Shown here: positions 7,405 through 30,414 of the stretch, one piece after another
Layout of the letters: every line of letters begins with the position of its first letter
How positions within the stretch are numbered: the stretch's first letter is position 1
Assembly (NCBI GenBank): GCA_003142475.1
Contig: PLMK01000080.1
Coordinates: 1 to 32,809, forward strand
Length of the DNA stretch: 32,809 bases
Direction of reading: 5' to 3'
From: Ignavibacteriota bacterium
GTDB lineage: Bacteria; Bacteroidota; Ignavibacteria; UBA10030
The notes under the pieces: model-generated
Database searches by the model: none
What the model was told of the DNA's origin: nothing
Seen by the model: only the letters and a program-made list of their open reading frames with translations
Position numbers and translations under genes: made by a program

Positions 7405-10400
7405 TTATAGTTCATATCTAATTCCTAGATTTAATGTAAAACCATAATAATTTTGAGAAGTGAAGCCGTTGATCGACTGCTGAACAGCCATATTCGATTC
7501 ACTATTAAGATTTTTTGCATCAAAAAACAACTGTAGTCCTGTCCATGGCAACATCTGTCGTGCTGAAAAATCTATACTAAAATAGTCTTTTGAATAACCA
7601 TCCTGCTCAGGATATGCTCCGACGTAGGTGACAGAGTTTCCCTGGAAAACACAAGACACCTTGGCAGAAAATCCTTTATAATCATAGCCAAGGGACACAT
7701 TGGCAATATCGTTCGGCTGATACACCAGCCGGCCGGTCCGCGTGCTGTCTGTGTACTTCGTTATGACACCTCTAACCGCTTTTTCATCGAAGTATGGATA
7801 GGTGGCTTGTGACCATACGTGAGTGTAATTGATCCCCAATACAATTCCGTTGAACGGAGCGGGAAGATACCAAAACCGGGTTTGAAAGTCGAATTCGACA
7901 CCCTTCACATAAGCCTTATAAGGACTATTGATGAAGGTGTTCAGTGTTGCGTCATCATCCGCAGATGTTAAAAACGGAGCAAATGAGGCTAAAGAGTCGA
8001 GGCCTGTTATCCCAAATTTATCGTATACAGCCTTGCTATGGAGATGGTACGCTGTGGCATAGGTGAAATGATCTATCTCCTTGTAGAATCCTCCGACTGA
8101 AAGAAGACCTAATTCATTGGAGTGAAGCGTGAACAAGAGGTCCTGGTTGTACGCCTGTGCCGGTTTCAATTTAGGGTCTCCTCCCCAGATATTGTGAGGA
8201 GAATCAGCTGAAATATTAAAATGCGGCGAAAACTGTGTATAATCAGGCCTTGCTAGTGTCTGAGTATATGAATACCGCAAGTCTACCCAATCAGCGATGT
8301 CATACTTTGCCTGCACCTGGGGGAGCCAGTAATGATTCCACGGATAAGCCGATACCGGGAAATACGGCTGAACCGCCGGGTTGCGTTCATCCATCATGTT
8401 ATAAGCGTCGTACAAGCCCTGATCTTCTTCATACCGTGCGCCGCCAACCACCATGAAGTTTGAACCGAATTCCAATTCCGTCATCAGGAATGCTGCATAA
8501 TATTTCTCGATATATTTGTAATCATTAGGAAGCTCCTGGTATGCACCATCGAACCATCCCCCAAGTGAATTGTACGCCCTCAGCGCAGGATTGTGGCTTA
8601 CATAGTTCATTATCCAATTCAGGGCACTCGGATCGGGAGCCCAATATATGCCTCCAAATTTGTTGTCTAAGAAACTGTTTATAAGTTTTGAATCACCGGA
8701 CGTAAAGTTAGATCCCAGTAATTGATTTGTGTTACCAAAAGCCAGATTAGGATAATAATGTAAAATAGCATCTACGACCTGACGGTTGATATCGGTGTTG
8801 TTGGCACTCCCGCGGTTGATGCTAATGTATGGTGTACTTTGATCATTATGATGTTCGTTGTAGCGATATTCTCCGCCGAATTTAAAGTATCCGGAGACGG
8901 ATGAACCGAGACTCAGCGGAATTTTGAAATCGGCTTTATAGACTTGATCGTTCTCTCGATAATCGGAACTGAATAGACTCGTCGATCCCAAAAGTGTTGT
9001 CGTGTCTGATCTATAGTTGACAAAATGCACCAAATTTTCGGGAACTATATTTGTATCACCTGTAACAGAATGCTGGTGGCTGATACCATTATTTTGGAAA
9101 AACGCGTAATACGGCGAAAGCGGGAGGTGATTCCTTGAATACGTATTAGCAACTTTAATATCCACGGATATAAATTTGAAGTCATTAGTAAATTGCAGCG
9201 AATTCACTGCAAGATCCGTATTGCTGGTTCCTTCCCGGTAATTAAAATCTATGTCATAGTTGGTGCTCACATAATTCAAGACCGTATTATAATCTTTATA
9301 ATCTGAATTCAAGCGACTGAACATATTGACAAATTTGATGGAGCCGGAAGGGAGCTGATAGTCAAGAATCAAATTACCACCAAATCGTTCCCTGGTTTCT
9401 AAATGACGATTCAGCGTCGTGTTGGTCACACGGACAGCTCTGTACCCGCTCGAACCCACAACAGAACTCGCTTGTTGGTAAGCCGCGGTCATGTTATCCG
9501 CACTGCGGTCGTATTGTTCCGCATTGCCAAGAACATAGACGCCAAGAGCATCATCGAAGAAACGATCGCTCGCAGAGGCCACGGCTCTATAGTTTCCGTA
9601 CTTATCAGTCTTTTGCGTATAGCCGGATTGAAATAATAAACTCGTGCGAAATCCTGATGGAGCTTCCCTCAGGTCCATATTCACGTACCCACCGATGGCG
9701 TTTGCCTCCATATCCGGGGTTAGTGTCTTATAGACTTCGATAGATTTTATCATATAAGGAGTGACCATCGTGAGGTCGATACTTCGATCATTATTGATCG
9801 AACCCGATGTAAGGCCGGCCAGGGATGTGGCACCAATCTGAGTGCTTCCCGTTGAAGCAAGCGAAATACCGCCAATAGCAACTGCATTATATTGAGGAGC
9901 TAAACCTCTGATGACCACTTTATTATCTTCACCAGAACTCTTTAATGTTGACACACCCGGTAAACGGCCTATGGCCTGTGCAGCGTTGAAGTCTGGTAAC
10001 TCTTGAATTCTTGCTTCAGACACAACGCTGGAAATTTTATTCGAAGCAAGCTGTTGGTTGATGGCCTGCACTTGTCCGCGTGCTTGAGCGGTCACGACCA
10101 CTTCCTCACCGGTTAATGCTTGTGGAATCAAACGAAATTCCTGTTCTGATGTTTTGTCTTCAACAATCGTCAGATCACGAACAATTGGAACATAACCAAT
10201 ACAGGAAACTTTCACCTTCCACGTACCAGCCGGGACAAACTTAATTTCGAAATTCCCATCCACATCCGCGGCAACTCCTAAACTCGTGTTTTGGATTATG
10301 ATATTGGCACCTACGAGCGGATCTTTCGACTGATTATCAATAACATGCCCTTTCAGAGAACCAGAACCTGCTGCATAGATAGGTTGAATCATGAAAAATA

Positions 10401-10458
10401 ATACAAATAGAAATACACAAGCTATTGTGCCGCGAAAACAAGCATTTCCAATAAACAT
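7405..10458 (-). CDS. TonB-dependent outer-membrane receptor with CarboxypepD_reg-like N-terminal domain
   Basis: 1017 residues, a full-length member. AAGGAG lies 8 bp before the ATG. Order: signal peptide (about 1-29), carboxypeptidase-regulatory-like beta-sandwich (about 34-115, with GHVIDNQSKDPLVGANI and DVDGNFEI), a TonB-box-like stretch EEVVVTAQA (118-126), the plug (about 140-260, with ELPDFNAAQAIGRLPGVS and VVIRGLAPQYNAVAIGG), then a long barrel ending NLGIRYEL with the usual aromatic/charged end. Such receptors import oligosaccharides or chelates across the outer membrane using TonB energy. It sits between the GPH sugar symporter gene and two T9SS cargo genes. No SusD-like gene is beside it, so it is probably not a classical SusC. 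Substrate is unknown, but glycan fragments are likely from context. Confidence 0.92.
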   Translation of the reverse strand: MFIGNACFRGTIACVFLFVLFFMIQPIYAAGSGSLKGHVIDNQSKDPLVGANIIIQNTSLGVAADVDGNFEIKFVPAGTWKVKVSCIGYVPIVRDLTIVEDKTSEQEFRLIPQALTGEEVVVTAQARGQVQAINQQLASNKISSVVSEARIQELPDFNAAQAIGRLPGVSTLKSSGEDNKVVIRGLAPQYNAVAIGGISLASTGSTQIGATSLAGLTSGSINNDRSIDLTMVTPYMIKSIEVYKTLTPDMEANAIGGYVNMDLREAPSGFRTSLLFQSGYTQKTDKYGNYRAVASASDRFFDDALGVYVLGNAEQYDRSADNMTAAYQQASSVVGSSGYRAVRVTNTTLNRHLETRERFGGNLILDYQLPSGSIKFVNMFSRLNSDYKDYNTVLNYVSTNYDIDFNYREGTSNTDLAVNSLQFTNDFKFISVDIKVANTYSRNHLPLSPYYAFFQNNGISHQHSVTGDTNIVPENLVHFVNYRSDTTTLLGSTSLFSSDYRENDQVYKADFKIPLSLGSSVSGYFKFGGEYRYNEHHNDQSTPYISINRGSANNTDINRQVVDAILHYYPNLAFGNTNQLLGSNFTSGDSKLINSFLDNKFGGIYWAPDPSALNWIMNYVSHNPALRAYNSLGGWFDGAYQELPNDYKYIEKYYAAFLMTELEFGSNFMVVGGARYEEDQGLYDAYNMMDERNPAVQPYFPVSAYPWNHYWLPQVQAKYDIADWVDLRYSYTQTLARPDYTQFSPHFNISADSPHNIWGGDPKLKPAQAYNQDLLFTLHSNELGLLSVGGFYKEIDHFTYATAYHLHSKAVYDKFGITGLDSLASFAPFLTSADDDATLNTFINSPYKAYVKGVEFDFQTRFWYLPAPFNGIVLGINYTHVWSQATYPYFDEKAVRGVITKYTDSTRTGRLVYQPNDIANVSLGYDYKGFSAKVSCVFQGNSVTYVGAYPEQDGYSKDYFSIDFSARQMLPWTGLQLFFDAKNLNSESNMAVQQSINGFTSQNYYGFTLNLGIRYEL

Positions 10459-10614: not shown

Positions 10615-12126
10615 CTAAAAACTCCTTCGCCGTTCTGCAAGTTCATCGGCCATCTGGATCGTCATTTTCTTATTGATCTGATATGCAGTCAACAAGAGTG
10701 TGCAGATCGCAAACATAATGCCGACAACAATCCCACTGCATGCACGAAAACCCGCCACTGCGTCAGGCGCATCAGGCATTTGTGTGTTATAGTTAAACAA
10801 ACCAGCCATAATCCAGAGGAACGAAGAAGAGCCAAGTGCCAAACCGCCTTTCAAAGCAAAACCAATAGTTGCAAAAACGATTCCCGTGAAGCGATGTCCT
10901 GTCTTCCATTCAGAGTAATCCGCCACATCCGCATAGATCGCCCAAATTAATGGAATAGTTGGAGCGTACGCAATTGCAATGAGAATTGTCAGCATAACCA
11001 TGCCGGTAATATTCGTAGGACCAAGCAAATAGAAAGCAAGTGTTCCTATGCTCGCAAGAGCAAATCCGCTAATTGCAACTACCTTCTTTCCAAACTTTTT
11101 AGCAAGAGATGGCGAGAGGATGATAACTATAATAGTAACACCAGTGCCGATCATATTGATAATACTGTTAGCAACGTCGGCAACATTCGAACTTGCTAGG
11201 TTTGCCTTATCTCCATGAACGATGTAACCGAGCCATTCAAGAATGCCGCCGGGTGCAGGAGCACCGGGAATGAGTGCAGGTGCAGTCAAACCCAAACTTT
11301 GTATCCAATCATATAACGCAGCTTTGTCGGCAAAATGATGATAATAATTATAGAGGGCAGCACCTCTGAATGAAAGAATCGCAAAGTGCACCAGTGTCAT
11401 GAAAAACATTACTTTCCACGGATTGTTTTTTAGCAAATTGATAAAATCCTCTTTTGGTGAGGACTTTTGCTGGGGCTTAGGTTTAATGCGTTCTTTTGAT
11501 GTAAAGAAAGTAATAAGGAATAAAAAGAAACATACAACGGCCCAAATTGTCATGGTCATCTGCCAGCCGTACTGTCTGTCATGCCCGATGGCAAACTTCG
11601 CAATCAACGGCAAAGTAAAACCGCCCACAATGAACTGGGCAGCGTTCACTGCAATGAAACGGTATGAATTAAGTTTGGCGCGTTCATTGACATCACCGGT
11701 CATAACACCGCCCAGCGCTGAGTACGGCATATTGTTCATGGAATAGATGCTCATCAGCAAAATGTTGGTGATGGCAGCATACACAATCATCGAGGTCATG
11801 CCCCAACCTTTCGGTGTAGTATACGCCAGGACCATCACGATACACCATGGCAGCGCCGTAAACAGAACCCATGGACGGAATTTCCCCCAGCGTGTGTTCG
11901 TACGGTCGGCAAGTACACCTACAATCGGATCAGCGAAAGCATCCCACAACCGAGCAACCAAAAGAATCGTTGCAGCAGCGCCAGCGGTTATACCAAAGAC
12001 ATCTGTATAAAAATTCGTCTGGAAAAGAATCATCGTCATGAAGACAAAATTTGCTGCAGCATCTGCGGCACTGTATCCTGCTTTTTCGACGAAAGAAAGC
12101 TTTTGGTGAAAGTGTTCTTCTGCCAT
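10615..12126 (-). CDS. GPH-family (MelB-like) sugar:cation symporter, MFS
   Basis: 503 residues with about 12 hydrophobic helices, the usual size for glycoside-pentoside-hexuronide:cation symporters. The diagnostic helix II / loop 2-3 motif is complete: W61-D62-A-F-A-D66-P, then LADRTNTRWGKFRPW to residue 86. D62 and D66 correspond to the paired aspartates that bind Na+ or H+ in MelB. A long hydrophilic and Pro-rich insert lies in the second half (LTAPALIPGAPAPGG). The family carries xylosides, melibiose, glucuronides and similar sugars across the inner membrane. Beside a TonB receptor and upstream cytoplasmic GH3/GH116/PfkB genes, it is the likely import step for their substrate. The ribosome binding site is weak. 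Its start lies only 38 bp after the stop of a degenerate TonB-receptor fragment, so its original promoter region may have been rearranged. Confidence 0.93.
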   Translation of the reverse strand: MAEEHFHQKLSFVEKAGYSAADAAANFVFMTMILFQTNFYTDVFGITAGAAATILLVARLWDAFADPIVGVLADRTNTRWGKFRPWVLFTALPWCIVMVLAYTTPKGWGMTSMIVYAAITNILLMSIYSMNNMPYSALGGVMTGDVNERAKLNSYRFIAVNAAQFIVGGFTLPLIAKFAIGHDRQYGWQMTMTIWAVVCFFLFLITFFTSKERIKPKPQQKSSPKEDFINLLKNNPWKVMFFMTLVHFAILSFRGAALYNYYHHFADKAALYDWIQSLGLTAPALIPGAPAPGGILEWLGYIVHGDKANLASSNVADVANSIINMIGTGVTIIVIILSPSLAKKFGKKVVAISGFALASIGTLAFYLLGPTNITGMVMLTILIAIAYAPTIPLIWAIYADVADYSEWKTGHRFTGIVFATIGFALKGGLALGSSSFLWIMAGLFNYNTQMPDAPDAVAGFRACSGIVVGIMFAICTLLLTAYQINKKMTIQMADELAERRRSF

Positions 12127-12164
12127 AAATCTATTTTTCTCTTGGATAGTTTACTTCTGAACTG

Positions 12165-12407
12165 TTAATATAAGTTTCTGTAAATCAAAATCGCGTTTAT
12201 TATATACTTACCATGAACATCCATTGGAGCTCCTAAACTTGCGCCTTTTAATGTGACATTTGCTCCAATCATAACTTCACTTGTTGTTGCATCTATAATA
12301 GTGCCTTTAATCTGTCTAGATTCCTGTTGCGCCGATAGGTATGGAGCACTAAATAATAAAAGATCTATGATTAAAAATGATTTTGTAGCGAAATTAATAA
12401 CCTTTCT
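12165..12407 (-). pseudogene. Remnant of a TonB-dependent receptor 5' end (signal peptide + CarboxypepD_reg start)
   Basis: Between a TAA at 12408-12410 and a TAA at 12165-12167 the minus strand encodes about 80 residues without any ATG near the front. They read as a signal peptide (KSFLIIDLLLFSAPYLSAQ) followed by QIKGTIIDATTSEVMIGANV and SLGAPMDVHGKYII. This matches the start of the CarboxypepD_reg domain in the intact receptor nearby (SLKGHVIDNQSKDPLVGANI, SLGVAADVDGNFEI). Similarity stops after GKYII, and the frame ends 12 codons later. The rest of that domain, the plug and the barrel are absent, and the GPH symporter starts 38 bp downstream. It is best read as a deletion scar. It is not a functional gene as it stands. 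Confidence 0.75.
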
Positions 12408-12813: not shown

Positions 12814-12827
12814 TTGAACCGATTCAA
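12814..12827. promoter_or_regulatory. LacI-type operator-like near-palindrome, copy 1
   Basis: TTGAACCGATTCAA is palindromic except for one base pair and has the central CG typical of LacI/GalR-family operators. An identical 14-mer occurs at 18925-18938, upstream of the GH3 gene. Here it lies about 400 bp before the TonB-receptor remnant and about 690 bp before the GPH symporter. No regulator gene is in the window, so the binding protein is unknown. Confidence 0.55.
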
Positions 12828-12883
12828 TAATAATGTATAAACATGCTTTATTCGTAATTGAAAAACGATTCTAGCTAATCGAT

Positions 12884-12907
12884 CATAATTAAATCTTATT
12901 AATTATG
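12884..12907. repeat. Perfect 9-bp inverted repeat
   Basis: CATAATTAA (12884-12892) and TTAATTATG (12899-12907) form a perfect inverted repeat with a 6-nt spacer, 57 bp upstream (minus-strand sense) of the operator-like site at 12814-12827. It could be a protein-binding site or simple AT-rich structure. Confidence 0.35.
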
Positions 12908-13043
12908 CAAGTGATTTTTTAAAAAGTTCACCAAGGATGCTATATCACTCAGAAAGACAAATTTTGTGTCCAATAGAAACATCAGATTTAAGTATGTTGA
13001 AAGTCCTCAATAATAGAGAAGCCTTCAGGCATGGAACACGCTG

Positions 13044-13940
13044 TTACAAGGAATGTTTTTCCTTTAATCGGATTAAGACATCCTCCAGCGTTCCGTTAAA
13101 AGGCCCGGGAGTTTCCATCTTGATTGAAACTAACGCCGCTGCAAATTTCAAAGATTCTCTTATGTCATGATTCAACCGCCAAGATAGGTACGCTGAAAAG
13201 GTTGTATCTCCACGACCCGTTCTGCCCGAGACGTTGCTGTTGGAAAACTTCTCATAATACGTTACGCCTTTCACATGTGCGAGGACGCCCTCCGAGTGCG
13301 TGATCATAACTTCGGGGCATCCCCACGATTCGACGATAACAGCAGCTTTCTCCAGATCTTCAGTGCCGGTCAGAATACGGGCTTCCACGACGTCCAGCTT
13401 GAGCTTATCCATCATCGCCGCGATTTCTTTTTTATCGGCAACGTCGCTGGACTCGTGGTCGTGGCTCACCGGGTTGATATGGCGGACGAAACTCTGCATA
13501 TCAACCGACAGACTGTTGTAGGCTCTGGACTTCAAACTCTTCATGAGCGCCATGTCGAACTCGGTGTCCGATATCCCGGCCAGATGGACGCACGTCGAGT
13601 CCAGAGCTGGAACATCATCGATGGAAATTAACCCGGCGGATTTGATGAGCGTCATCCTACGTTCATCGACGTTCGCGGAGTAGTGCAACACTCTATTATA
13701 CGATGTCTCTTCACTTGGGATGAGGTATGTATCGACGCCGACGTCTTTCATCGGCTGAAGGATAGCTTCGTCCTTCTTGGCCATCTTCACGACGGCGGCC
13801 ACTTTTTTTCCAATTCGAGCAGCTACCATCGCACCGCATAAAACGGCGCTTCCCGGAGCAACACGCGGTTGCCCTCCGAATGGAATGATTTCGTCATAGC
13901 ACATGTGACCGATGAATGTGATGTCGTACTTCTTTGGCAT
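13044..13940 (-). CDS. PfkB/ribokinase-family carbohydrate kinase
   Basis: 298 residues, standard length. The N-terminal strand reads DITFIGHMCYDEIIPFGG, as in the family's substrate-binding lid. GSAVLCGAMVAARIG resembles PfkB signature 1. The C-terminal signature 2 is SGRTGRGDTTFSAYL (about 238-251), with D245 as the expected catalytic base in the anion-hole GxGD motif. AAGGA lies 10 bp before the ATG. It is cytoplasmic, with no signal peptide. The gene follows the GH116-type gene after 29 bp and is very probably co-transcribed with it and GH3. It would phosphorylate the monosaccharide, or a derived acid or nucleoside, released by those enzymes. The exact substrate cannot be read from the sequence. 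Confidence 0.85.
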   Translation of the reverse strand: MPKKYDITFIGHMCYDEIIPFGGQPRVAPGSAVLCGAMVAARIGKKVAAVVKMAKKDEAILQPMKDVGVDTYLIPSEETSYNRVLHYSANVDERRMTLIKSAGLISIDDVPALDSTCVHLAGISDTEFDMALMKSLKSRAYNSLSVDMQSFVRHINPVSHDHESSDVADKKEIAAMMDKLKLDVVEARILTGTEDLEKAAVIVESWGCPEVMITHSEGVLAHVKGVTYYEKFSNSNVSGRTGRGDTTFSAYLSWRLNHDIRESLKFAAALVSIKMETPGPFNGTLEDVLIRLKEKHSL

Positions 13941-13969
13941 TTCGATTGATTCCTTAGTTTAGCAGAATA

Positions 13970-16519
13970 TTATTTGATGTTTTCCGTACCGTTCAAAAGT
14001 TCAGAGAATAACGGAATCAGGTCTTTCGATTCGACAGTCTTGGACTTGGTTTTTTCCTGGATCGTTTTGATGCGGTTCAAGACCAGATGCGTCCAGATCG
14101 CACCGGGCCGCGGGTAGGCGGCGACGATGTAATGAGGCCCGGGAGTGGACTCCCCTGCTTCTTTTTCCAACTCGGCCCGGAGATTGTCCGGCGTAATCAT
14201 GGAATTGGCGTAATCGAAGATAACCCGGTCCATGTGCTTGTAAACGTCCTTGCTCTCCTTGACCATTCCGTAGTAATCCAACAACTGGGCAAAGACGTAA
14301 TTGGATGTCGTGTAGACGTCTTTCCCCTGATCCGACTCCACCGGTTTGCCATTCTCCGTTTTGCACATGGCCCAACCCATGAACGAGCGGTTGTTTCGAT
14401 AGATAGTCTTGAGGATCTTCTTGACCCGGTCCTCCGGGATAAGCGGCTCTTCGCCGATAGCAAGCAGGTACCAAAGGGCGTCGAGTTGGTTAGTCCAGAC
14501 GTCGGTGTTTTTCTTTCCAGTCTCGGGATCGAAGCAGGTGATGTAATACTGAAGCTTCTCACCCTTCTTGTTCTTTCCGTCCCGCCACAGTTTATCGAGA
14601 GCTTCCCAACCCTTGTCGAATGCCTGCTGGATGTGTTTCTTGCCGGCCTGGTCGCCGACCATGTCGGCCAGTTTGATCAAGGCTTGGCATCCGCCCAAAA
14701 ACTGCGTCGCATCGTATGCGTCGGCACCGAAGAGGACTAAGTTGTCGAACGTGTTTTTTACTTCCTCGGGATAGCCTTCGGGTATACCGTCGTTGTCAAA
14801 ATCGAGCTGAAGCAGGGACTCCAGACCGAATTTAAGCGTTTCCCAATTCTTCTTAAGGAACTCGATGTCGCCCGTGAACTTGACGTTGCGCAGTACCCGC
14901 ATGGCGAGCTTCGGATACAGGTCTACCCAGTAATTGTTGTTGTACCATGCATAGTCGCTCACGTTGCGGAGCGGATGGCCCTTGGGCATGGCGCAGACGT
15001 CGTGAGCCACGCTGCCCTTGGTTTTAAATGCATCCCGGATCTGGGTCATCGACAGGCCTTCGTACGCCTCGGGATGTTCCTGGAAATGTTTCCTGGCTTC
15101 GACGTTCGAGGCATGGTGGTGGTACCAGCGCTGTGTGGGATCTACGGCCTGGATCGAATCGATGAAAGCCTGGCACAGATCCATCTCGACCTTCGGGAAA
15201 AGCATCAACAGCACCATCGAATACCAATCCACGTCGGAAGGATCAATGTATGCATAGTCGAAGCATTCCAGAAACCGTGCACGCTCGTTCCCATTTTCGT
15301 CTTCGACCCAGACGATCGCGTTGGACAGCGGGAAATGGAGTTCATTCAAGATCAACCTGGTAAGGCGCAGGGCGCCGACACGGTCGTTTTTGTAAGAGGC
15401 GCTGGACTGTATTGAATCAAAGATCCTCTTCTGGATTGCGACAGTCCGGTCCCACCAGATTGGATAACTCTCCAGCGCGAGTTTGACCAGGTCGATCGTT
15501 CGCGTTTCCGGGTTCGTAAATTTTTTAACGTATTTGCGTTCGAAAGTCTTGCCGTCGATGTAAACCTGTACTGGGAAATCCAACACAATGGCCACGGGAA
15601 TTTTCACGGATGACTTCGGCTCTACGGTGAAAGTCAGACTGATGGCCGCTCCGTAGTCGCTGCGTAGAACTGGCTGGCGCTTTTCATAGAAACTTCCGTC
15701 CGCATTCAGAAGAAGATCGCCTGTGTACTTGTTCAGGCAGAAGTACGGCTGGACATCCACGGCAACGCCCGGCAGTTCGGGCACGGCCAGAGCCATGCGA
15801 TTATCGGTTTCTGTGCTACCCATGATCACACCGCGGAAGCCTGCGGATTGAAATTCCTCGTGCTTTTGTCCGCTAACCGCCGCTGTGCTGACGTAGATGC
15901 TATCCTGGTCCGTCGGTTTGAGTTCCTTCTCCTGCAGGTTGACAAGGGACGGTCTGGGCACCACGAGCGTGATTTCCTGGGCATCTGCCCCAGTGTTTTC
16001 AATCTCAAATTCTTCAACCCCCAATGGCATGAGCGTCTGATCGTTCCCCGACAACAAAGGAGAAATAATCCGCCGGATGATTTTTATCTTTCCCAACTTG
16101 AAGGCGATCTCCAGTGACGGCGTGGCGATGGTGAGGGAAACGTTCTTTTCGGCAATCGGAGGATGGTAGTAATTTTTGAGTGCCGGGATGTCGTCGGGCA
16201 GTTCGGTCTCGCCCGGGTCCTTCTGGGTTAGCATCGTGCAGGTCTCGTCAATGCGGACGTAGGGCGCGGAGCCAAACTGGACAGCCTTTTGGTTCAGCAT
16301 GATGAGCCTTCCCGCGTCGTTCAGGCGGTTGTACAGACCATAGGGGGAAATACCGATCGAACACGTCGGCGCCCCCTGCAGGGCAACCGTTTGCGGAAAC
16401 TGCAATGTCTTGGACATTCCCTGAAAGTGGACCGCCATCTTGTTTTTTTCGTAAATGGAGACTGCTTCGGGTCCTGCGATGGTATAAATGTCACGCAGGT
16501 TGAACTCGGAAGATTTCAT
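13970..16519 (-). CDS. GH116-type glycosidase (GBA2 / beta-glucosidase-like), cytoplasmic
   Basis: 849 residues from the ATG at 16519. GAGAGGA (16528-16534) is 8 bp before it, but only 2 bp before the alternative ATG at 16525. The N-terminal half is beta-rich. The C-terminal half has the (alpha/alpha)6-barrel motifs of GH116: RFLECFDYAY...DVDWYS..LLMLFPKVE (around 415-445), DFDNDGIPEG (573-582), NTFDNLVLFGADAY (589-602), and a closing YPRPGAIW segment. E418 in FLEC aligns with the region of the family's nucleophile, and D592 in TFDN with its acid/base, judging from human GBA2-like sequences. There is no signal peptide. The family includes beta-glucosidases, beta-xylosidases and N-acetylglucosaminidases, so the substrate is open. 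Base composition is clearly richer in GC than the 19-32 kb region. It lies between GH3 and the PfkB kinase. Confidence 0.78.
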   Translation of the reverse strand: MKSSEFNLRDIYTIAGPEAVSIYEKNKMAVHFQGMSKTLQFPQTVALQGAPTCSIGISPYGLYNRLNDAGRLIMLNQKAVQFGSAPYVRIDETCTMLTQKDPGETELPDDIPALKNYYHPPIAEKNVSLTIATPSLEIAFKLGKIKIIRRIISPLLSGNDQTLMPLGVEEFEIENTGADAQEITLVVPRPSLVNLQEKELKPTDQDSIYVSTAAVSGQKHEEFQSAGFRGVIMGSTETDNRMALAVPELPGVAVDVQPYFCLNKYTGDLLLNADGSFYEKRQPVLRSDYGAAISLTFTVEPKSSVKIPVAIVLDFPVQVYIDGKTFERKYVKKFTNPETRTIDLVKLALESYPIWWDRTVAIQKRIFDSIQSSASYKNDRVGALRLTRLILNELHFPLSNAIVWVEDENGNERARFLECFDYAYIDPSDVDWYSMVLLMLFPKVEMDLCQAFIDSIQAVDPTQRWYHHHASNVEARKHFQEHPEAYEGLSMTQIRDAFKTKGSVAHDVCAMPKGHPLRNVSDYAWYNNNYWVDLYPKLAMRVLRNVKFTGDIEFLKKNWETLKFGLESLLQLDFDNDGIPEGYPEEVKNTFDNLVLFGADAYDATQFLGGCQALIKLADMVGDQAGKKHIQQAFDKGWEALDKLWRDGKNKKGEKLQYYITCFDPETGKKNTDVWTNQLDALWYLLAIGEEPLIPEDRVKKILKTIYRNNRSFMGWAMCKTENGKPVESDQGKDVYTTSNYVFAQLLDYYGMVKESKDVYKHMDRVIFDYANSMITPDNLRAELEKEAGESTPGPHYIVAAYPRPGAIWTHLVLNRIKTIQEKTKSKTVESKDLIPLFSELLNGTENIK

Positions 16520-16565
16520 CAGCATATTCCTCTCACTCGTTGTTTGGGTGTATCAAATCTGTGAA

Positions 16566-16587
16566 GGATCCTTGTTTTCAAGGGTCC
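16566..16587 (-). repeat. Short hairpin in the leader of the GH116-type gene
   Basis: GGATCCTT (16566-16573) and AAGGGTCC (16580-16587) can form an 8-bp stem with one G-U pair and a 6-nt loop, about 46 bp upstream of the GH116-type start. No U-tract follows, so it is not a clear terminator. Confidence 0.35.
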
Positions 16588-16703
16588 AAAATTGTTCCCA
16601 GTGCCGGTTCGAGATCTCAAGTTTGCCGCCGGCGCTCGGAATGATTGTTTCAAGAAGCCATCTCAAGAATGACGAGGCTCAAATACAAGGGCTTCACACA
16701 AAA

Positions 16704-16744
16704 ACGCAAAGACGTAAAGATGGCTTCCTTCACGGCCTTTGCGT
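16704..16744 (-). terminator. Hairpin with U-tract between GH3 and GH116 genes (terminator/attenuator or dispersed-repeat relic)
   Basis: Arms ACGCAAAG (16704-16711) and CTTTGCGT (16737-16744) form a perfect 8-bp stem around a 25-nt loop. Read on the minus strand the stem ends in CTTTGCGTTTTTGTG, an immediate U-tract. It lies in the 282-bp space after the GH3 stop (16802) and may partly terminate transcription before the GH116 gene. The CGCAAAGACG wording also resembles a common dispersed palindromic element, so the two readings compete. I see no reading frame in the rest of this spacer. Confidence 0.45.
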
Positions 16745-16801
16745 CCTAGCATAGACATTTTTAAGATGACCTTTACCTTTGTTGTGGAAGGGCGCTTGAT
16801 A

Positions 16802-18634
16802 TTAGCACTTTCCCGCCCACATATTGGCTGCTGGCTTTTTCCCGGGCTTCAGAGGAGCAACGGGTTCGTCCGGAATGTTCGCCTCGGCGCTCAGATCGAT
16901 CGGCATCTTCGTTGTGGGACGTGCCTTGATGGTGCCCCACAGAAGATCTGCGGCAGCCCTGATGGAATCGGGCGAGCCGGAGAAGTTGCAGACCACTACG
17001 TCGGCTTCGCGGGTGACGCCTTTCCGGTACGGGAAGTTAGTCACAACGATCACGGTGTGTCCCGCCGCCTTCAACGCCTTAACTAGGCGCTGGTTATTGC
17101 CTTTCTTCTCGATACGGGCAAAGTAGTTCGTCATAACGACCAGATCCGCCTCTTTCGCCAGTTTTAGAGCTTCTTCCATATCCTCATCGGTGGCATGAAA
17201 GCCGGTATCATCTAAAATGAGGTTCATCGAGTGCTTAGCCATCTGCTCGCAGAACATGTGCGGATGACTGTACAGATCCTTACCCAGGAAGGAGTAGGGG
17301 ATGATCTGCTCGATGACCAAGATCCTCTTGTCCTTGGAGAGAGGCAGGAGTTTCTTGTCATCGCGCACTACTAGGAGAGCTTTCTCAGCTACTTCCCGAG
17401 AGAAGCCCTGGACTTCCTTGCTGTGGACGTTGATGTGGGTCTTTTCCGGATCCATTTTTCCGGCTTTCTCGAACAGACCTTGGTCGTACTTCATGCACAG
17501 GAGCCGCCGAACCGCATCGTTGAGTCGCTCTTCGGAAAGCTCGCCGCGCTCGACGGCGCCCTTGATCCCGAAGAAGCACTGCGAACGGGATTCATCGTCT
17601 GCCTTGAGGAGGATGGTGTCCACACCCGCCTTGATTGCCATGGCGCACGCCTTGGGAAGCGGCCACTGTTTCAGGATGGCAGCCATACCGATTGCGTCCG
17701 AAACGACGACGCCCTGGAATCCCATTTCCTTCCGCAAAAGATCGACGAGGATCTTCGAGGACAAGGTGGCCGGGAACTCCTTGTCGTAGGCCGGGAAGAT
17801 TGTGTGTGCCGTCATTAAAGCCTTAGCACCCGCATTAACACCCGCCTGGAACGTGACCAATTCGACTTCTTTCATACGCTTCAGGTCGCCCTTGCAGACA
17901 TCCAGCGTATCGTGCGCATCGGTCGCCGAATCGCCGCGGCCGGCAAAGTGCTTGATAGTTGCCACGATGCCCGCATCTTGATAACCGCGAACCGTCGCAT
18001 CCACGAACTTCGCGCATTTCTGGGGATCGTCGCCGAAGGAACGCACCCCGATTTCGGGGTTCAAGGGATTGATGTTGACATCGCAGACTGGATGGTAGAA
18101 CTGCGTGATGCCGATGAGTGCCATTTGCTTGCCGAGTGTGTTTGCTACCTTATAAGCGAGATCGAGATCGCCGATGGCGGTGATGCCCATGGGCGGAGGA
18201 AATTGGATGACATGGCCTGATGTATAGTCGTTCTTGAAATCGCCTTCCATATCGATGGTGATGTGTAAGGGGATTCCCGCGGGCCGCTTCAACGCGATTT
18301 GCTGCAGTTGGTTGAGCGCGGCGGTGAGCTCCTCGGGAGTCACGCATACACCGAAGCTGCGGTCGTCGAAGTAGGTGTGCGCGATATCGAACCAGTCTTT
18401 CGGTTTTTTGAAATTGGGATCAACTTGGGAACGCCCCCAATACAAGTTCTTGCAGGTCTCCAGTGCGTAGGGTTCCAGGCAAAGGCCGCCGGCATGCAAC
18501 CGGGTGATCTGTTCGAACCCCGAAGGCGTCAAGTAAGCGCCGCGCCATGTAAACGTGAGAACCTGACCGCATTTTTCCTCCAGGGTCATTTTCGCTAGCT
18601 TTGATGCAACAAATTTATCTCTTTCTGCTGACAT
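16802..18634 (-). CDS. GH3 glycosidase, NagZ-like (Asp-His dyad), cytoplasmic
   Basis: 610 residues. GAGGAG lies 7 bp before the ATG. The first domain is a GH3 TIM barrel (about 10-360): LHAGGLCL, IDMEGDF, IKHFAGRGDSATDAHDTLD and VVVSDAIGMAAI. D313 in VSDAIGM is the expected nucleophile. The D239-A-H241 pair sits where NagZ-type enzymes carry the Asp-His acid/base dyad. A second alpha/beta sandwich follows (about 390-590), shorter than in most beta-glucosidases. With this dyad the family gives exo-beta-N-acetylglucosaminidases and also some phosphorylases, so beta-glucosidase is not the default assumption. There is no signal peptide. It is first of three likely co-transcribed genes (GH3, GH116, PfkB), behind an operator-like palindrome at 18925-18938. 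Confidence 0.87.
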   Translation of the reverse strand: MSAERDKFVASKLAKMTLEEKCGQVLTFTWRGAYLTPSGFEQITRLHAGGLCLEPYALETCKNLYWGRSQVDPNFKKPKDWFDIAHTYFDDRSFGVCVTPEELTAALNQLQQIALKRPAGIPLHITIDMEGDFKNDYTSGHVIQFPPPMGITAIGDLDLAYKVANTLGKQMALIGITQFYHPVCDVNINPLNPEIGVRSFGDDPQKCAKFVDATVRGYQDAGIVATIKHFAGRGDSATDAHDTLDVCKGDLKRMKEVELVTFQAGVNAGAKALMTAHTIFPAYDKEFPATLSSKILVDLLRKEMGFQGVVVSDAIGMAAILKQWPLPKACAMAIKAGVDTILLKADDESRSQCFFGIKGAVERGELSEERLNDAVRRLLCMKYDQGLFEKAGKMDPEKTHINVHSKEVQGFSREVAEKALLVVRDDKKLLPLSKDKRILVIEQIIPYSFLGKDLYSHPHMFCEQMAKHSMNLILDDTGFHATDEDMEEALKLAKEADLVVMTNYFARIEKKGNNQRLVKALKAAGHTVIVVTNFPYRKGVTREADVVVCNFSGSPDSIRAAADLLWGTIKARPTTKMPIDLSAEANIPDEPVAPLKPGKKPAANMWAGKC

Positions 18635-18911
18635 TGCTTATCTCCTCGAGAATTATATATGTTTTGGGTTGTCTATACCAATTATTGTGACGAATTACAA
18701 GAACACGTTGAACAGGCTCAATCCGACTGAGGGCACGTTCGATTTATCCGGTTATCAAATGCAGTAATGGAAGAAATTTAATGATGAGAAATTAATATCA
18801 GCATCTTGCTTTTCTTCATTTATTAAAATAATACACTTATCCTTCTCATACCTCAGATTCAAGGGGTAATGAATTTTTGGGGAACTAAAATTTAATTCAA
18901 TTATTCTGATT

Positions 18912-18931
18912 GGTTCAATTATGATTGAACC
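18912..18931. promoter_or_regulatory. Inverted repeat overlapping operator copy 2
   Basis: GGTTCAAT (18912-18919) and ATTGAACC (18924-18931) form a perfect inverted repeat with a 4-bp spacer. The right arm is also the left half of the operator-like palindrome at 18925-18938. The same half-site (TTGAACC / GGTTCAA) therefore occurs three times in 27 bp, which suggests cooperative binding. Confidence 0.5.
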
Positions 18932-18938
18932 GATTCAA
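18925..18938. promoter_or_regulatory. LacI-type operator-like near-palindrome, copy 2
   Basis: TTGAACCGATTCAA, identical to the site at 12814-12827 and in the same orientation, lies 291 bp upstream of the GH3 start. Both copies are followed on the plus strand by a similar A/T-rich AATAAT run. It probably controls the GH3-GH116-PfkB genes. The cognate regulator is not in the window. Confidence 0.58.
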
Positions 18939-19013
18939 AATAATAGGTAAGATCTACAAAAGCAAGTTAAAAAAATACTTATTCCTTCGCGAGCACATCG
19001 ATGAAGGAAGAAC

Positions 19014-21644
19014 TCATATCGAAAACCAGTAGCTGAGTTTCAGCAGAAAGAGATTGGTGGGAGAGACATTTTGCAGGTTGCGTATTGCGGCATCAACCGA
19101 ATCATTACCAGGTTGATCGTATGCCGTTCGTTCGTGCGATCAAACCAAATAAAGCTGTGAACCAGGCAAATACTCCCAGCGGAAAACCAGATTTGACCGA
19201 AACTGGCCAAAGGCGAAATCAGGATTCGCAAACGAATATTCTAGACCATGGTCATCGAGCACTTCATATGTATTACCTTTCTGTATTAGATTGAGTATAA
19301 AGAATCTATCACTATAATCGGCAGCTCTTGGATTGCTCGCAGTTTTAAATAGAGAGTATCTACCCACGGAAGTAAACGGACTTCCATAATATTGCAGGGA
19401 CAATTCCGGCGTGAGATTGTAGTCTATTCTAAATGTTGCGCCTAATGAATGTTGTGCGATGTGTGCGAGGATATATCGTTGATTATTGTTATCGGACCGA
19501 GTATCAACGTATTGGAGATTGTCGACATTTGAAGAATAATTAACGCTAACGGCTACTCTTAGTATTGTAAGAGGCATGACCGACAATCCCGGCTGCACAT
19601 ATGAGTAGTGGTTACTCGGATTGGCAGAGGCACTAACATTGTATGTGCATTCGAAAAAAATTCTTTCGGAAGGATCTGTCCGGACGTAATGACTCATAAA
19701 CCATGTTCGCGGTACCAGCATCGCGTATCCTCCACGCAAGAGACGGATGTCAAGAGCTTCAGGTGTATAACTCAGGGATGTAGTAAGTGCCCACTTGTTT
19801 AGAAACTCGAGATAGATGTTCGTGCTGAAAACTATCGACAAGTACCGAATGCCAAAATCCCAATTGTTGATTTCGTTAAGTCCGACCGAGTAAGTCCTGA
19901 ATATCGAAACTGGCTGGTTCACAAAATAGGAGATGGAATTGCTAAGCTTAATAATATCAGCCGTTTGCATAAACCCGAGATCATTGAGATCGAGGCCGGG
20001 CGAACGCCAGTTTAATTCTGTGGAATAATGCCAGAACCCTTTACTGCCTTTTCCTATCTTGAGCTGTCCCCCGTAACCACTGAGTTGTGTACGTGTACTA
20101 TCAAACTGAACGTAGTCTAGGTCGGGTCGTTGGTAGTAACGTGCAGAGGCATTTTGAAGACCACTGATCGCTTCGGTGCTACCTGAGATCGTGCTCCCGA
20201 TGAGGTTTGCGTTTACATAGAACTCTTTATCATTCCATTGATGCAGCAAATCAAACCCGCCAGTGTATGCATCGCGATTGATAAAATGGAGATGTGAATC
20301 GTTAATGAAGCAATTGGTCGCAGTAACGATCCCTCCCAAAACAGTATTTCCTTCCTCAAAATCTTGCTGAAGACGTGCGATTGAATAGCTGGTTAATGGT
20401 TCAACAGTAACTTCCCTTTGAGTAGTTGCACTTTGCAGTATCGCCTGTTCCCTGTTGGTGATGTTCTGGAGCACGCCGACTGCGAGCCCGTTTGATGTTT
20501 TACCGCTGACTTTCAGGGCACTGAGGATAGTAATATTATCTGGAAACTTCATGTACGCATCTTCACTTACGATGGGAGTATACGTAGGAGCGTGTCCAAT
20601 GCGACGGCTGTAGAACATGTTAGTGTTGTCGAAATCGAAACTGAAAATGTTTTTTCCTTTCAGGAAGAAGGGCCGTTTTTCTTCGTAGAAAGTCTCAAAT
20701 GCCGTAAGATTCATCACCGAAGGATCTGATTCTACCTGACCAAAATCGGGATTAACGGTAACATCAGCTGTGAAGTTGCTTGAGAGACCAATCTTAGCAT
20801 CGAGGCCAACATTTCCCAGCCAGCTTAGACCTTTGTCAGTGAAGGGATTATCGGGCTCTGTCTTGAATGTCTTCAATTTTCCGAGTGTGTAAGGCATAAT
20901 TTCGATGCTTTGGGATTTCGGCAAATCCTGAATACCATGGATTTCGCCGAAGAGATAGAGAATCCCCGGTCCCTCGGAAGATTGCGGTTCCCAATCGTTT
21001 TCTTCCTGCAAGCGATCGATCCAGCGCTAGCAATGCATTCCCCATATCTGTTCATTGTCGCCGCTGTAGCGAAGTTGGCTCAGAGGAATCTAGAACTCAA
21101 CGGTCCAGGCAGAGTCCTCTATGCCGGTCTTCGCGTACCAAACAGCATTCCAGTTTACATCGGTGATAGATGGATTGGTGAGAATCAGATCAATCTTTTG
21201 TCCTACTGCCGTAACATCAAACTCAAACCCAGTCCTATGATCATGATAGCTGTCGAAATTCACGCCTAGGACGTCACCGTTAAACTCATCACGCCTGCCC
21301 CCTTTACAAATAATTTTTTCAGGTTCACTGTCAAAGGCCCGAAAGGCAACATAGATATTCTTGTCATCATACAGGATTTTGAATTGCGTTGGTTGAGAAG
21401 GTCTTGCTCCTTTCCTGGGAATCCATTGTGTGAAATCGCCTGTCCACTCACCGGTTTTCCAGCATTGATCATTTAGGATTCCATCGATTATGGGTTTTTC
21501 GCCTATAAGACGAACTGCGTTATAGATTCTCGGAGATCTCTTAGACAGCGTGCGTGTTGTATCGTCCTTTTCTATGTAACCAAAGGCAAATATATTAGTG
21601 CTAACGAAGAAATTGACGATTATTAAAACTAATGAACATTTCAA
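19014..21644 (-). pseudogene. DUF5916 / CBM9-like outer-membrane protein gene with three in-frame stop codons
   Basis: One continuous frame of 877 codons runs from a TTG start (21644) to a natural-looking end, LKLSYWFSI-stop at 19014. It is interrupted at three codons: TAG at 21090-21092 (WTVEF-stop-IPLSQLRY), TAG at 21027-21029 (WGMHC-stop-RWIDR) and TGA at 19140-19142 (GSQLYLV-stop-SHERT). Sequence on both sides of each stop fits the family, and no frameshift is needed. Order: signal peptide (KCSLVLIIVNFFVSTNIFA), CBM9/DOMON-like domain (about 40-185, with IDGILNDQCWKTG), then a long beta-barrel DUF5916 region (WLGNVGLDAKIGLSSNFTADVTVNPDFGQVE, FYEEKRPFFLKG). No ATG lies in frame near the front and no good ribosome binding site is visible. 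It is most simply a recently inactivated gene. Stop-codon readthrough or sequence error are alternatives. Confidence 0.85.
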
Positions 21645-21772
21645 GATTATACATTCAATGAATTGTTTTATTATGCTATTTTATAATATATTTGCTGAGA
21701 GGCTCTAGTTGATCCACTATGTACGAAACGACGAGACACATATTTGGTTTATTGCAAAATAGTGGACAGACT

Positions 21773-23740
21773 TCATCGCGTAGAGATACACAACAAAAAA
21801 CCATCTTGAGATTTCATGGTAACTTTGAGAGACCGTGTTATATCAATATTGTGAATATTAAATGAGCGATCATTCAACTCGCTAGTAAAGAGAAGGCTCT
21901 TGATTGGATTTTCAATAAAACTCATATTTACTTCTAAAGTCTTTTCAATCGATTCACCATTAATACCTGCCACATACCACACTTTATCTTTTCTTCTAGC
22001 GATAACTATATATTTCCCCGGATATCCATCGATAAATTTCGTTTCATCCCACGCCACAGGTACATCTTTCATGATTTTTTTAACTTCGGCAGGAACCTTC
22101 GCCATTCCTTCCGGCACTTCGGCAAAATGTTGAATACCAGACCAGAAGAGCACTGATAATGCCAATTCAAAACTATTTGTTGTTTTTCTACGAATATTAG
22201 GTATTTCACTAAAGCAAACAGGTGTAAAATCCATTGGATCGAATAGATTACGTGTAAACGGAATTACCGCGCAATGTGCGGCTTCTTTATCGGCATTTGT
22301 TTGCTCGAATGTTATAAATTCAAATCCCTTAATCGCTTCCATCGAAACAAGGTTTGGATATGTACGCTGCCACCCTCTAGGTATTGTAGAACCATGACAA
22401 TTCACCATTAATCCGTACCGCGCCGCATCTTCAATAATATCTTGGTAATACGTCATAACAGATTGTCCGTCGCCGCCGAAGAAATCGACTTTAATTCCTG
22501 ATACACCTAATTGTTTTAGTTTCTTGAATTCGGTTTCGCGAAGTTCTTTTGTAAGCAATTTGTTCCGAGGAGAGTATGGTGTTGTATTCCAATCGCCCGC
22601 TGAATTATACCATACTGTAATACCGACTCCCTTTGATTTGGCATATGAGCATAGTTCGCCAAGCTTCTCGTACCCAATTTTTCTGTCCCAGTCCGCATCG
22701 ACAAGGCAATATTCCCATGTCATATCTGCCGCGTAGTCGATAAATCGCTTTTGCACTGGAAATATCGTTGAATCATCTTTGAAAAGAACCCAACTCCACG
22801 TTGACCTCCCCGGTTTGATATATGAAATATCAGAAATTGTTGGCGGTTGTGCTAAATCGGTGCCAAGTGTGGATTCGACAAGCGTTCCGAGATTATCACA
22901 TAAGGTAATGATACGCCACGGTGAATACCAAGGAAGCTGTGATTCAGGATTGAGAGCTCCGTTAAAGATTACTTCAGCTTTTTGAGGAAATCCAATTTTG
23001 AATCCTGTGCTCAGACTATCGTGAAGCAACCTGCAACCACAATAATTTCGGTCTGGAGCTGTTTCGGTTAGTGCAATCCAATAATGTCCCGAATTAAATA
23101 ATGCTGGAAACACCCAGCCTGGTTTGTTCGTAGGCAAATTTTTTATGTTGATCTCGTGATAATAATGTTCTTCGTACGATGGATTAGTTCTGTTCCAACC
23201 CGATTTTGCTTCAGCAATCGGCTGAATCCATGCACGCGTGCTATCATTGAAATTGAAATACGTCATTTCATCCGTAATTAATTTTAGACCATCCGATTTA
23301 CCGGGAAAGAAGTATCTCAACGCAACACCATCATTCGATACCTGGAATATAATATCAAGCTCTTTGTCCTCACTATTTTTAAGATGATACACTTTCTTAT
23401 GAACACGATAAAGACAATTTTTCTTTTTCCCGTACAAGAGCGTGTACTGATCTTCAATTTTTTCTACAGATGAAGCTGATACCAGCCGTAGGTTTTTAGA
23501 AAAGTCCGCATCTTCTCTCATCAATCCTAACCGGTTATTTTTTATAACGGGGAGGCCATTATAGAGAACGGTAAATTCAGGCGTTCCATTAGCGGCCATT
23601 TTGAAGTCAGCATAAATAATGCCATTGGGACTCGCAACACGGTTTTGATTTTCACCATAAGAATTTTCTGCTAAAAGAAGTAAAAGGATCACCGCGAACC
23701 GACTATAATATTTCACTATTTTTCTATTAATCATTTTCAT
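21773..23740 (-). CDS. GH97 glycoside hydrolase (retaining alpha-galactosidase-like subtype)
   Basis: 655 residues from the ATG at 23740, chosen because AAAGGT (23748-23753) lies 7 bp upstream and a signal peptide follows (NRKIVKYYSRFAVILLLLLAENSYG). The upstream extension to 23818 has neither. The GH97 N-terminal beta-sandwich (VASPNGIIYADF..., GVALRYFFPG) is followed by the TIM barrel: STWSWVLFKDD, YCLVDADWD, GVGITVWYNS, GIKVDFFGGDGQ and IPFTRNLFDPMDFTP. Asp419 in KVDFF occupies the nucleophile position of the retaining alpha-galactosidase branch, whereas SusB-type inverting alpha-glucosidases use Glu residues. Glu468 in SMEAIKG is a candidate acid/base. It is exported, probably periplasmic. 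Here it would remove alpha-linked side residues from the polysaccharide. The precise sugar is inferred only. Confidence 0.9.
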   Translation of the reverse strand: MKMINRKIVKYYSRFAVILLLLLAENSYGENQNRVASPNGIIYADFKMAANGTPEFTVLYNGLPVIKNNRLGLMREDADFSKNLRLVSASSVEKIEDQYTLLYGKKKNCLYRVHKKVYHLKNSEDKELDIIFQVSNDGVALRYFFPGKSDGLKLITDEMTYFNFNDSTRAWIQPIAEAKSGWNRTNPSYEEHYYHEINIKNLPTNKPGWVFPALFNSGHYWIALTETAPDRNYCGCRLLHDSLSTGFKIGFPQKAEVIFNGALNPESQLPWYSPWRIITLCDNLGTLVESTLGTDLAQPPTISDISYIKPGRSTWSWVLFKDDSTIFPVQKRFIDYAADMTWEYCLVDADWDRKIGYEKLGELCSYAKSKGVGITVWYNSAGDWNTTPYSPRNKLLTKELRETEFKKLKQLGVSGIKVDFFGGDGQSVMTYYQDIIEDAARYGLMVNCHGSTIPRGWQRTYPNLVSMEAIKGFEFITFEQTNADKEAAHCAVIPFTRNLFDPMDFTPVCFSEIPNIRRKTTNSFELALSVLFWSGIQHFAEVPEGMAKVPAEVKKIMKDVPVAWDETKFIDGYPGKYIVIARRKDKVWYVAGINGESIEKTLEVNMSFIENPIKSLLFTSELNDRSFNIHNIDITRSLKVTMKSQDGFLLCISTR

Positions 23741-23843
23741 TATTGATACCTTTATGAATACATGATTCAAGTTGACGATTATTCCAACAGGATGACTTAC
23801 GCAAAAATCATCTAACAAGACCGGATTGGTTCGGCTATAGGAT

Positions 23844-24986
23844 TTATTTTATTTTCTTTGCAAAGAATCCACTATTATACTGTTCAGTTTGAAATCCAGT
23901 TACCTTTCCAGTGTCATCCTTTTGAAAATGGATAATTAAATATGCGCCCATGATGTAAAAATCTTTCTCCGTTTCAGCATAGATTGTCATCTTCGGACTA
24001 CCGGGAGCAATTCCAACAAGCTGACTGCCTTCTCGTTCTAACTTTACATGCAATTGCGGATTGATCTCGTATTCGCCGACATACCGTTCCAATATTTCTT
24101 GATCGACTTTTATGGAAGGACGTTTAAACACTTGCTGCAATCCCCTGTTATATCCTTCTGGCTTTGTTCCTGCATGACCGGATCCCTTAACTATTTGAGT
24201 TTCTAATTCCAGACCTTTTATTCTGCAATCTCGTATTGATGCTGCCAATTTTTCAAAACCAGGAACATCTTCATATTCTCCTATATATGTATATACTTTT
24301 ACAGGGTGCGATAAATTTATTTTTGAGAATTTCTCAATATGCTTGAGTAAAGAGGCTTTATCCCATGACAAGGCAGGGCTACCGGGGATATACTGGTTGA
24401 ATAATTCAGTTTCAGTAAAGAGAGCATAGAGTGTAAACAATCCGCCGAATGAATGTCCGGCCAATGTACGATTGTTTTTATTCGTTCGGTATTTTGAATC
24501 AATAAAGGGAATTGCTTCTTTTTTAATGAACGAGAGAAATTTTTCAGCATTCCCGAATTGAGTCGGCTGACCGTTATCTGTCGGCGTCAGATCAAAAGCA
24601 CGTCGTGCATCGTAGTTAGGATTTTCACCGCCCCAGGTGATACCGACAATGATAGTACTCGGCATAAATCCATCATAATATTGATCTCCATAAATTGCAG
24701 TAATCAATGGAAAATCCCACTGGCTATCCAGCAGATAAACAACCGGAAAAGTCTTACTCGTATCACTGTAATGCTGCGGTAATTGTATGTGTAAAACATA
24801 TTCCTGACCTGTGATAGAAGAATTGATTTTTAAAACCTGAGAACCGGCAATTTCAAACTGATGGGGTTGGACAGAGGAAATATCTTTTGCCTGGCCAAAG
24901 CTTTGAATTGATATAAAGAAAAGTAATGAAATTAAAATGAAAATCTTGCCAAAAAGGTTGGCATGGATTATTTTTAAAGCGTTCAT
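23844..24986 (-). CDS. Secreted alpha/beta-hydrolase esterase (IroE/Fes, CE1-like) with DUF3471-like C-terminus
   Basis: 380 residues from the ATG at 24986, with AAAGGA (24994-24999) 7 bp upstream. A TTG six codons earlier is less likely. The signal peptide is NLFGKIFILISLLFFISIQSFG. The esterase core has FPVVYLLDSQWDF, IIVGITWGGENPNYDARRAFDLTP and the nucleophile elbow GHSFGG with Ser179. The acidic residue is probably in GEYEDVPG (about 237-240), and His271 (GSGHAG) completes the triad. About 100 C-terminal residues (LERYVGEYEINPQLHVKLEREG...) resemble DUF3471. Members of this superfamily cleave siderophore, acetyl or feruloyl esters. In a xylan-like locus a carbohydrate esterase is the natural guess. 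It follows the UroD-like gene by 61 bp and precedes GH97. Confidence 0.85.
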   Translation of the reverse strand: MNALKIIHANLFGKIFILISLLFFISIQSFGQAKDISSVQPHQFEIAGSQVLKINSSITGQEYVLHIQLPQHYSDTSKTFPVVYLLDSQWDFPLITAIYGDQYYDGFMPSTIIVGITWGGENPNYDARRAFDLTPTDNGQPTQFGNAEKFLSFIKKEAIPFIDSKYRTNKNNRTLAGHSFGGLFTLYALFTETELFNQYIPGSPALSWDKASLLKHIEKFSKINLSHPVKVYTYIGEYEDVPGFEKLAASIRDCRIKGLELETQIVKGSGHAGTKPEGYNRGLQQVFKRPSIKVDQEILERYVGEYEINPQLHVKLEREGSQLVGIAPGSPKMTIYAETEKDFYIMGAYLIIHFQKDDTGKVTGFQTEQYNSGFFAKKIK

Positions 24987-25047
24987 AAAGATTTCCTTTC
25001 TCAAAGAAAATAAACCTAGTAAAAACTTGTTATTTCATTTTAGGAAC

Positions 25048-26073: not shown

Positions 26074-26147
26074 TCTTTCTATCCTTTTTATCCGTTAAAA
26101 GATCTCCTTCTTTTTCCTTATAAGCTTATCCTATGAATTTATCTTTG

Positions 26148-27778: not shown

Positions 27779-27843
27779 TATTATACTTTATCGATTTTTA
27801 TTGAACCACTATATCATCCAAAGGCGAGTGCTTTTTTATTTGC

Positions 27844-28530: not shown

Positions 28531-28695
28531 TTTATTAAGAAATATTCAATTATATTTTTGTATTCAAAGTATTTATATTGGGTCTTACAGGAAAAAATAT
28601 TTTTATAATATAGTATTTACTTTTCCTTTAAGCTTCATAGAAGCGTTTTTTCTTTTCAAGAACATCTCAATTATTTTCCGGCTTAACAAGCAAAA

Positions 28696-30411: not shown

Positions 30412-30414
30412 GGC

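Follow-up and report, generated by a model that had tools for sequence, protein, structure and literature searches.

The LacI-family regulator XynR of Anaerocellum/Caldicellulosiruptor bescii recognizes CG-centred palindromes, with binding validated in vitro, in front of its own gene and of beta-xylosidase, xylanase, esterase and alpha-glucuronidase operons; no orthologues were reported beyond some Firmicutes, with weak homologues in Chloroflexi (PMC12285236). A comparative genomic collection of LacI-family regulons likewise features even, CG-centred palindromes, and the spacing of tandem sites peaks at 13, 22 and 32 bp (Ravcheev et al. 2014, PMC4052901). Here we analysed a 32,809-nucleotide stretch from an Ignavibacteriota bacterium (contig PLMK01000080.1; hereafter the window, whose positions are given as bare numbers), in which two identical palindromes, at 12814-12827 and 18925-18938, lie on either side of a GH3-GH116-PfkB gene block. 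A reading of the letters, referred to below as the original prediction, had proposed that they are LacI-type operators of a small regulon joining sugar import to hydrolysis. We conclude that the palindromes are very probably operators of a LacI-family regulator encoded just outside the window (C54:34050-35081), through which xylan-use units would be repressed and co-induced.

Palindromes in front of xylan-use genes

Pattern searches of the 3.58-Mb genome returned no exact copy of the 14-mer TTGAACCGATTCAA beyond the two in the window, which share one orientation as originally described; both are intergenic and upstream of minus-strand genes, and the number expected in the whole genome under a dinucleotide (Markov) model is 0.11. 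When variants were included, the palindromic form TTGAANCGNTTCAA was found five times (12814, 18925, C54:33609, C54:33911 and C21:11664), compared with 0.97 expected under the same model and a single copy of the reversed pattern. Rather than being scattered over non-promoter positions, a concern of the original prediction, each of the five perfect copies falls between genes, 5′ of the regulator or of xylan or xylose genes, four of them on the window's own 70-kb contig. One-mismatch palindromes on C38, C11, C12 and C62, at positions in unrelated coding sequence, were set aside as chance matches, as were weaker window matches at 6629, 14067, 21944 and 25688, which fall within coding sequence and have no second operator.

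A search for LacI/GalR genes near the sites led to the plus-strand gene at C54:34050-35081, 1.2 kb beyond the window end, with two palindrome copies in front of it. The gene starts 139 bp after the C54:33911 site, and the C54:33609 site points the opposite way, to the GH115 operon. Its product exceeds the cut-offs for PF00356 (helix-turn-helix, HTH) and for PF13377/PF00532 (sugar-binding), which places it in the LacI family.

Orthologues of this regulator, at 57-94% identity, are present in about a third of 100 related genomes, mostly Ignavibacteria metagenome assemblies that are not phylogenetically independent. We collected upstream regions by gene alone, using either the regulator only or the xylose isomerase gene xylA only. 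Within 800 bp upstream of 25 LacI orthologues, the palindrome was found with 0, ≤1 and ≤2 mismatches in 13, 18 and 23 regions (shuffle means 0.01, 0.19 and 2.5), with several sites at positions -44 to -51 relative to the start codon of lacI. Within 500 bp upstream of 30 xylA genes, it was found in 9, 14 and 16 regions (shuffles 0, 0.08 and 0.92). The two genes also travel together: by hand count, 29 relatives have both, 4 and 4 have a single one and 63 have neither (Fisher p = 1e-16), and they are frequently at one shared locus. The units that typically follow the site in relatives are GH3-GPH-xylA-receptor, FGGY-kinase-xylA or GH115-GH43. Raw counts of TTGAANCGNTTCAA per genome did not clearly split genomes with the regulator from those without it, the pattern being too generic.

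The nearby LacI gene, the conservation of sites before lacI and xylA and the promoter layout that the targets share (below) support the original view of LacI-type operators linking import and hydrolysis. The predicted regulon is wider than the word 'small' implied, extending to xylA, a corrinoid module and probably a mutarotase. A pair of palindromes is in this way developed into a regulon that can be tested and whose regulator is named.

Operator and promoter arrangement

Oriented by gene, 26 target promoters, picked partly for palindrome content, align as TTGAC/TTGCY-N17-TAnTAT-O1-N6-O2, where O1 is the main operator and O2 a second, degenerate operator of the form TTTAACCCATTAAA or TTGAACTGATAAAA. 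These promoters are sigma-70-like with 17-bp spacing, and O1 overlaps the -10 box. The AATAAT-like runs noticed beside both window sites are real and, given this overlap, are the predicted -10 box read from the opposite strand, since the coding (minus) strand reads TATTAT at that position. For the 18925 promoter, an alternative -10 box (TATTAT) is predicted at 18945-18940. At 6-bp spacing, the promoters match the second-operator pattern at 6.5 of 9 positions on average; other spacings give means of 1.5 to 4.5. The extra inverted repeat described at 18912-18931 is also present; with O2 lying 6 bp past the 18925 O1, it is better understood as a half-site of that operator. The second operator at the 12814 site (TTAAACCCATTAAA), 6 bp downstream of O1 and 20 bp from it centre to centre, had been overlooked. 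When the genome was searched for O1-N6-O2, both window sites ranked first and C72:125264 was also recovered; the sites before lacI itself have no second operator. Both window sites do precede the units assigned to them, the GH3 operon and the receptor-remnant/GPH-symporter unit, with the qualification that the leaders are long (291 bp and 688 bp, respectively, from site to start codon).

We suggest that, without inducer, a LacI dimer would occupy O1 and cover the -10 box together with the probable start site, and that a second dimer would probably bind, perhaps cooperatively, to O2, the weaker operator, which lies 20 bp further downstream and faces almost the same side of the helix; RNA polymerase would then be blocked. 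A xylan-derived sugar, either xylose or a xylo-oligosaccharide, would free the repressor. The units induced together would number five to six: GH115-GH43-corrinoid-GH97, the lacI gene, GH3-GH116-PfkB, GPH symporter-receptor, xylA and, probably, the mutarotase-SSF symporter unit. This would provide an operator/promoter model, with O1 on the -10 box and O2 20 bp off, for Ignavibacteria, a mostly uncultured lineage. The same protein at the same sites might instead act as an activator or have a mixed effect, in keeping with the long leaders and with the poor -35 match at 12814, a feature of some activator-dependent promoters. We consider this improbable: placing O1 over the -10 box and start region, as in the 26 aligned promoters, is the classic repressor arrangement, and the autoregulatory sites close to the lacI start codon also fit repression.

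The regulator and its hinge residue

In LacI and PurR, a hinge leucine inserts at the central CG step of the operator. The regulator studied here has a leucine at the corresponding hinge position (Leu56), every site has a central CG, and even, CG-centred palindromes lie near its own gene (C54:33609 and 33911) as well as at orthologues; the residue expected to read the operator centre is therefore consistent with the pairing of this regulator with these sites. Among the orthologues, 20 of the 21 with Leu56 have a CG-centred site before lacI and none of the four without it does (p = 4e-4), a value limited by the 91-95% mutual identity of three of those four, which amounts to about two independent losses only. 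The four (L071, L072, L074 and L082) carry Phe or Met at position 56 and could serve as a natural test of covariation between hinge residue and operator centre.

The genome encodes four LacI-type HTH proteins in all, and the sites might belong to one of the three paralogues or to a global factor, the nearby LacI gene being incidental; TTGAANCGNTTCAA-like palindromes do occur in relatives that lack a strong orthologue of it. We regard this as very unlikely. The site is conserved before orthologues of the C54:34050 gene, Leu56 covaries with CG-centred sites, and the paralogues differ from it in their reading residues; within 500 bp, one of them has a different palindrome, TTGGAAGCGCTTCCAA, and two have none of this kind. 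The perfect TTGGAAGCGCTTCCAA palindrome lies upstream of the C77 paralogue (L016), about 49 bp ahead of the point where its HTH-coding sequence starts, and is probably the operator of that protein.

The C54:34050 regulator falls short of the NCBIfam equivalog cut-offs for ccpA (173 bits, cut-off 442) and PurR (190 bits, cut-off 501). CcpA and PurR are the closest solved structures by sequence (PDB) and share its fold, HTH and hinge Leu, but they are global or purine regulators, unlike the xylan-linked regulator here.

Gene content and history of the locus

The features of the window are listed in Table 1. The long run that begins with GH115 has its operator outside the window, at C54:33609, and two N bases at L020:811-812 (about C54:32810-32811) break the GH115 frame, the window ending at an assembly gap. 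The C21:11664 site lies 437 bp before xylA (TIGR02630, over cut-off), on a contig that also holds a GH30 glucuronoxylanase-like gene, GH35 and an esterase. GH10 and GH67 genes are found beyond the regulator on C54, and a search upstream of them at ≤3 mismatches returned no site. This gene content points to glucuronoxylan as the substrate. At C72:125264 (L026:5265), tandem imperfect LacI-like sites precede genes for an aldose 1-epimerase (mutarotase) and an SSF symporter, a probable sixth target.

Table 1 Features of the window discussed in the text
Feature	Position	Strand	Details
Main operator O1, GPH-symporter/receptor unit	12814..12827	-	TTGAATCGGTTCAA on coding strand; pattern search and promoter alignment
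Degenerate second operator O2, TTAAACCCATTAAA	12794..12807	-	9/9 consensus positions; background frequency 0.001
Predicted -10 box TATTAT, overlaps 12814 O1	12827..12832	-	Prediction only; in-register -35 poor (ACGAAT)
Main operator O1, GH3-GH116-PfkB unit	18925..18938	-	Pattern search and promoter alignment
Second operator O2, TTGAACCAATCAGA, one good half-site	18905..18918	-	7/9 consensus positions; background frequency 0.013
Predicted promoter TTGCTT (18965-18960), 17 bp, TATTTT (18942-18937)	18937..18965	-	Prediction only
GH3 glycosidase, first gene behind 18925 site	16802..18634	-	
GH116 glycosidase	13970..16525	-	
PfkB-family sugar kinase	13044..13940	-	
GPH-family sugar:cation symporter	10615..12126	-	TIGR00792
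TonB-dependent SusC-like receptor, probably in symporter unit	7405..10458	-	
GH115-GH43-corrinoid/methyltransferase-esterase-GH97-CBM9-DUF5916 run	19140..32809	-	One strand, gaps ≤165 bp
URO-D/MtaA-like methyltransferase, corrinoid protein, homocysteine S-methyltransferase-like and B12-activation-like (Met_synt_B12-like) genes	25048-28530	-	
TonB-receptor N-terminus remnant in symporter leader	about 12189..12395	-	tblastn, E down to 2e-12
Short relic RDFDLQKLILTVQK*, like C-terminal end of long GH3	12151..12201	-	14 residues; short match, read by eye

The receptor remnant reported in the symporter leader is genuine, being recovered by tblastn on the minus strand, and just before the symporter lies a short relic similar to the C-terminal end of a long GH3, the gene that precedes the symporter in relatives. 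In relative G012, whose GH116 is 92% identical, the order is GH3-GH116-PfkB-GH10, then the site, then symporter-xylA-receptor. Together, the leader relics and this gene order would place the 12814 site at a former operon front: most likely that of a GH3-symporter-xylA-receptor operon from which GH3 has since been lost here. The xylA gene now lies elsewhere, on a separate contig and behind an operator of its own.

The original prediction offered a second reading, in which the two same-orientation copies are the borders of a segment, here GH3-GH116-PfkB, that was inserted or duplicated. The regions around the sites are indeed 78% identical over 46 bp, and the history of the block is mosaic, GH116 being present in only 5 of the 100 genomes. 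This likeness, however, consists of the operators and the -10 box and ends after about 46 bp, additional copies precede lacI and xylA, the homologous G012 block has a site on one side only, and we saw no target-site duplication or mobility gene; this reading is not supported, and we give it slightly less credence still than a different regulator. Chance occurrence in AT-rich intergenic DNA, where about one TTGAANCGNTTCAA per genome is expected, has a negligible probability in view of two exact 14-mers within 6 kb against 0.11 expected genome-wide and of strong conservation before orthologous genes, where shuffled sequences give counts close to zero.

Several observations weigh against regulation by the C54:34050 LacI as set out here. 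The relatives that supply the conservation are not independent of one another, and the way in which the 26 promoters were picked leaves the conservation of their flanks as the only independent evidence in that alignment. The close relative G012 has no site at ≤1 mismatch before its homologous GH3, which means that conservation of the 18925 site does not extend to that genome, and the regulator of G003 has Phe56, yet a CG-centred site is kept before its xylA. At 12814, the poor -35 match and the 688-bp leader with its gene relics indicate that the promoter may be weak or decaying. Last, the C72 site is imperfect and, seen from the epimerase gene, its second operator lies on the far side.

A candidate demethylation module

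The corrinoid module lies between GH43 and the esterase in the GH115 operon, and in several relatives URO-D is close to GH115/GH43, xylA or the regulator. With the motif placed by eye, the URO-D protein has His-Asn-Asp (HND) where His-x-Cys (HxC) is expected in S-methyltransferases, a type of substitution reported for O-methyltransferases (PMC10418091). The same LacI palindrome stands before genes for RACo, a corrinoid activator, in G012 (L155:3955) and G022 (L169:5414); the genome that contains the window yielded no RACo gene. On the basis of these sequence features we tentatively propose that the regulon may include a corrinoid-dependent O-demethylase acting on 4-O-methylglucuronate from glucuronoxylan. 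We found no paper on corrinoid demethylation of 4-O-methylglucuronate in the literature searched, whose coverage was partial. If the proposal holds, the LacI switch would also govern the recovery of xylan methyl groups through a corrinoid pathway, and co-regulation would give an otherwise hard-to-explain corrinoid module a likely role in methylglucuronate demethylation.

Comparison with known systems

In the partial literature covered by our search, we found no report of a LacI xylan regulon in Ignavibacteria, and the words Ignavibacteria, XylR, XynR and xylan are absent from the main text of PMC4052901. As far as that search reaches, the predicted regulon is new for this lineage; the type of control is already familiar from XynR/XylR-like LacI regulons, which it resembles in having sites before xylose isomerase (C21:11664) and before xylanolytic operons (the GH115 and GH3 units). 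Compared with the collection of Ravcheev et al. 2014, it shares even, CG-centred palindromes and tandem sites near helical repeats, and differs in its 20-bp spacing and in the constant position of its degenerate second site. By analogy, it appears to work most like XynR of Caldicellulosiruptorales. The operator sequence is not the same (GAAAnCGnTTTC-like), and transport in C. bescii relies on ATP-binding cassette (ABC) systems, in contrast to the GPH symporter and TonB receptor of the present system. In C. bescii, xylA is under a separate ROK-family XylR, whereas here a site for the one LacI precedes xylA. We therefore suggest that the Ignavibacteria regulator is a functional analogue of XynR with a wider reach that includes xylA.

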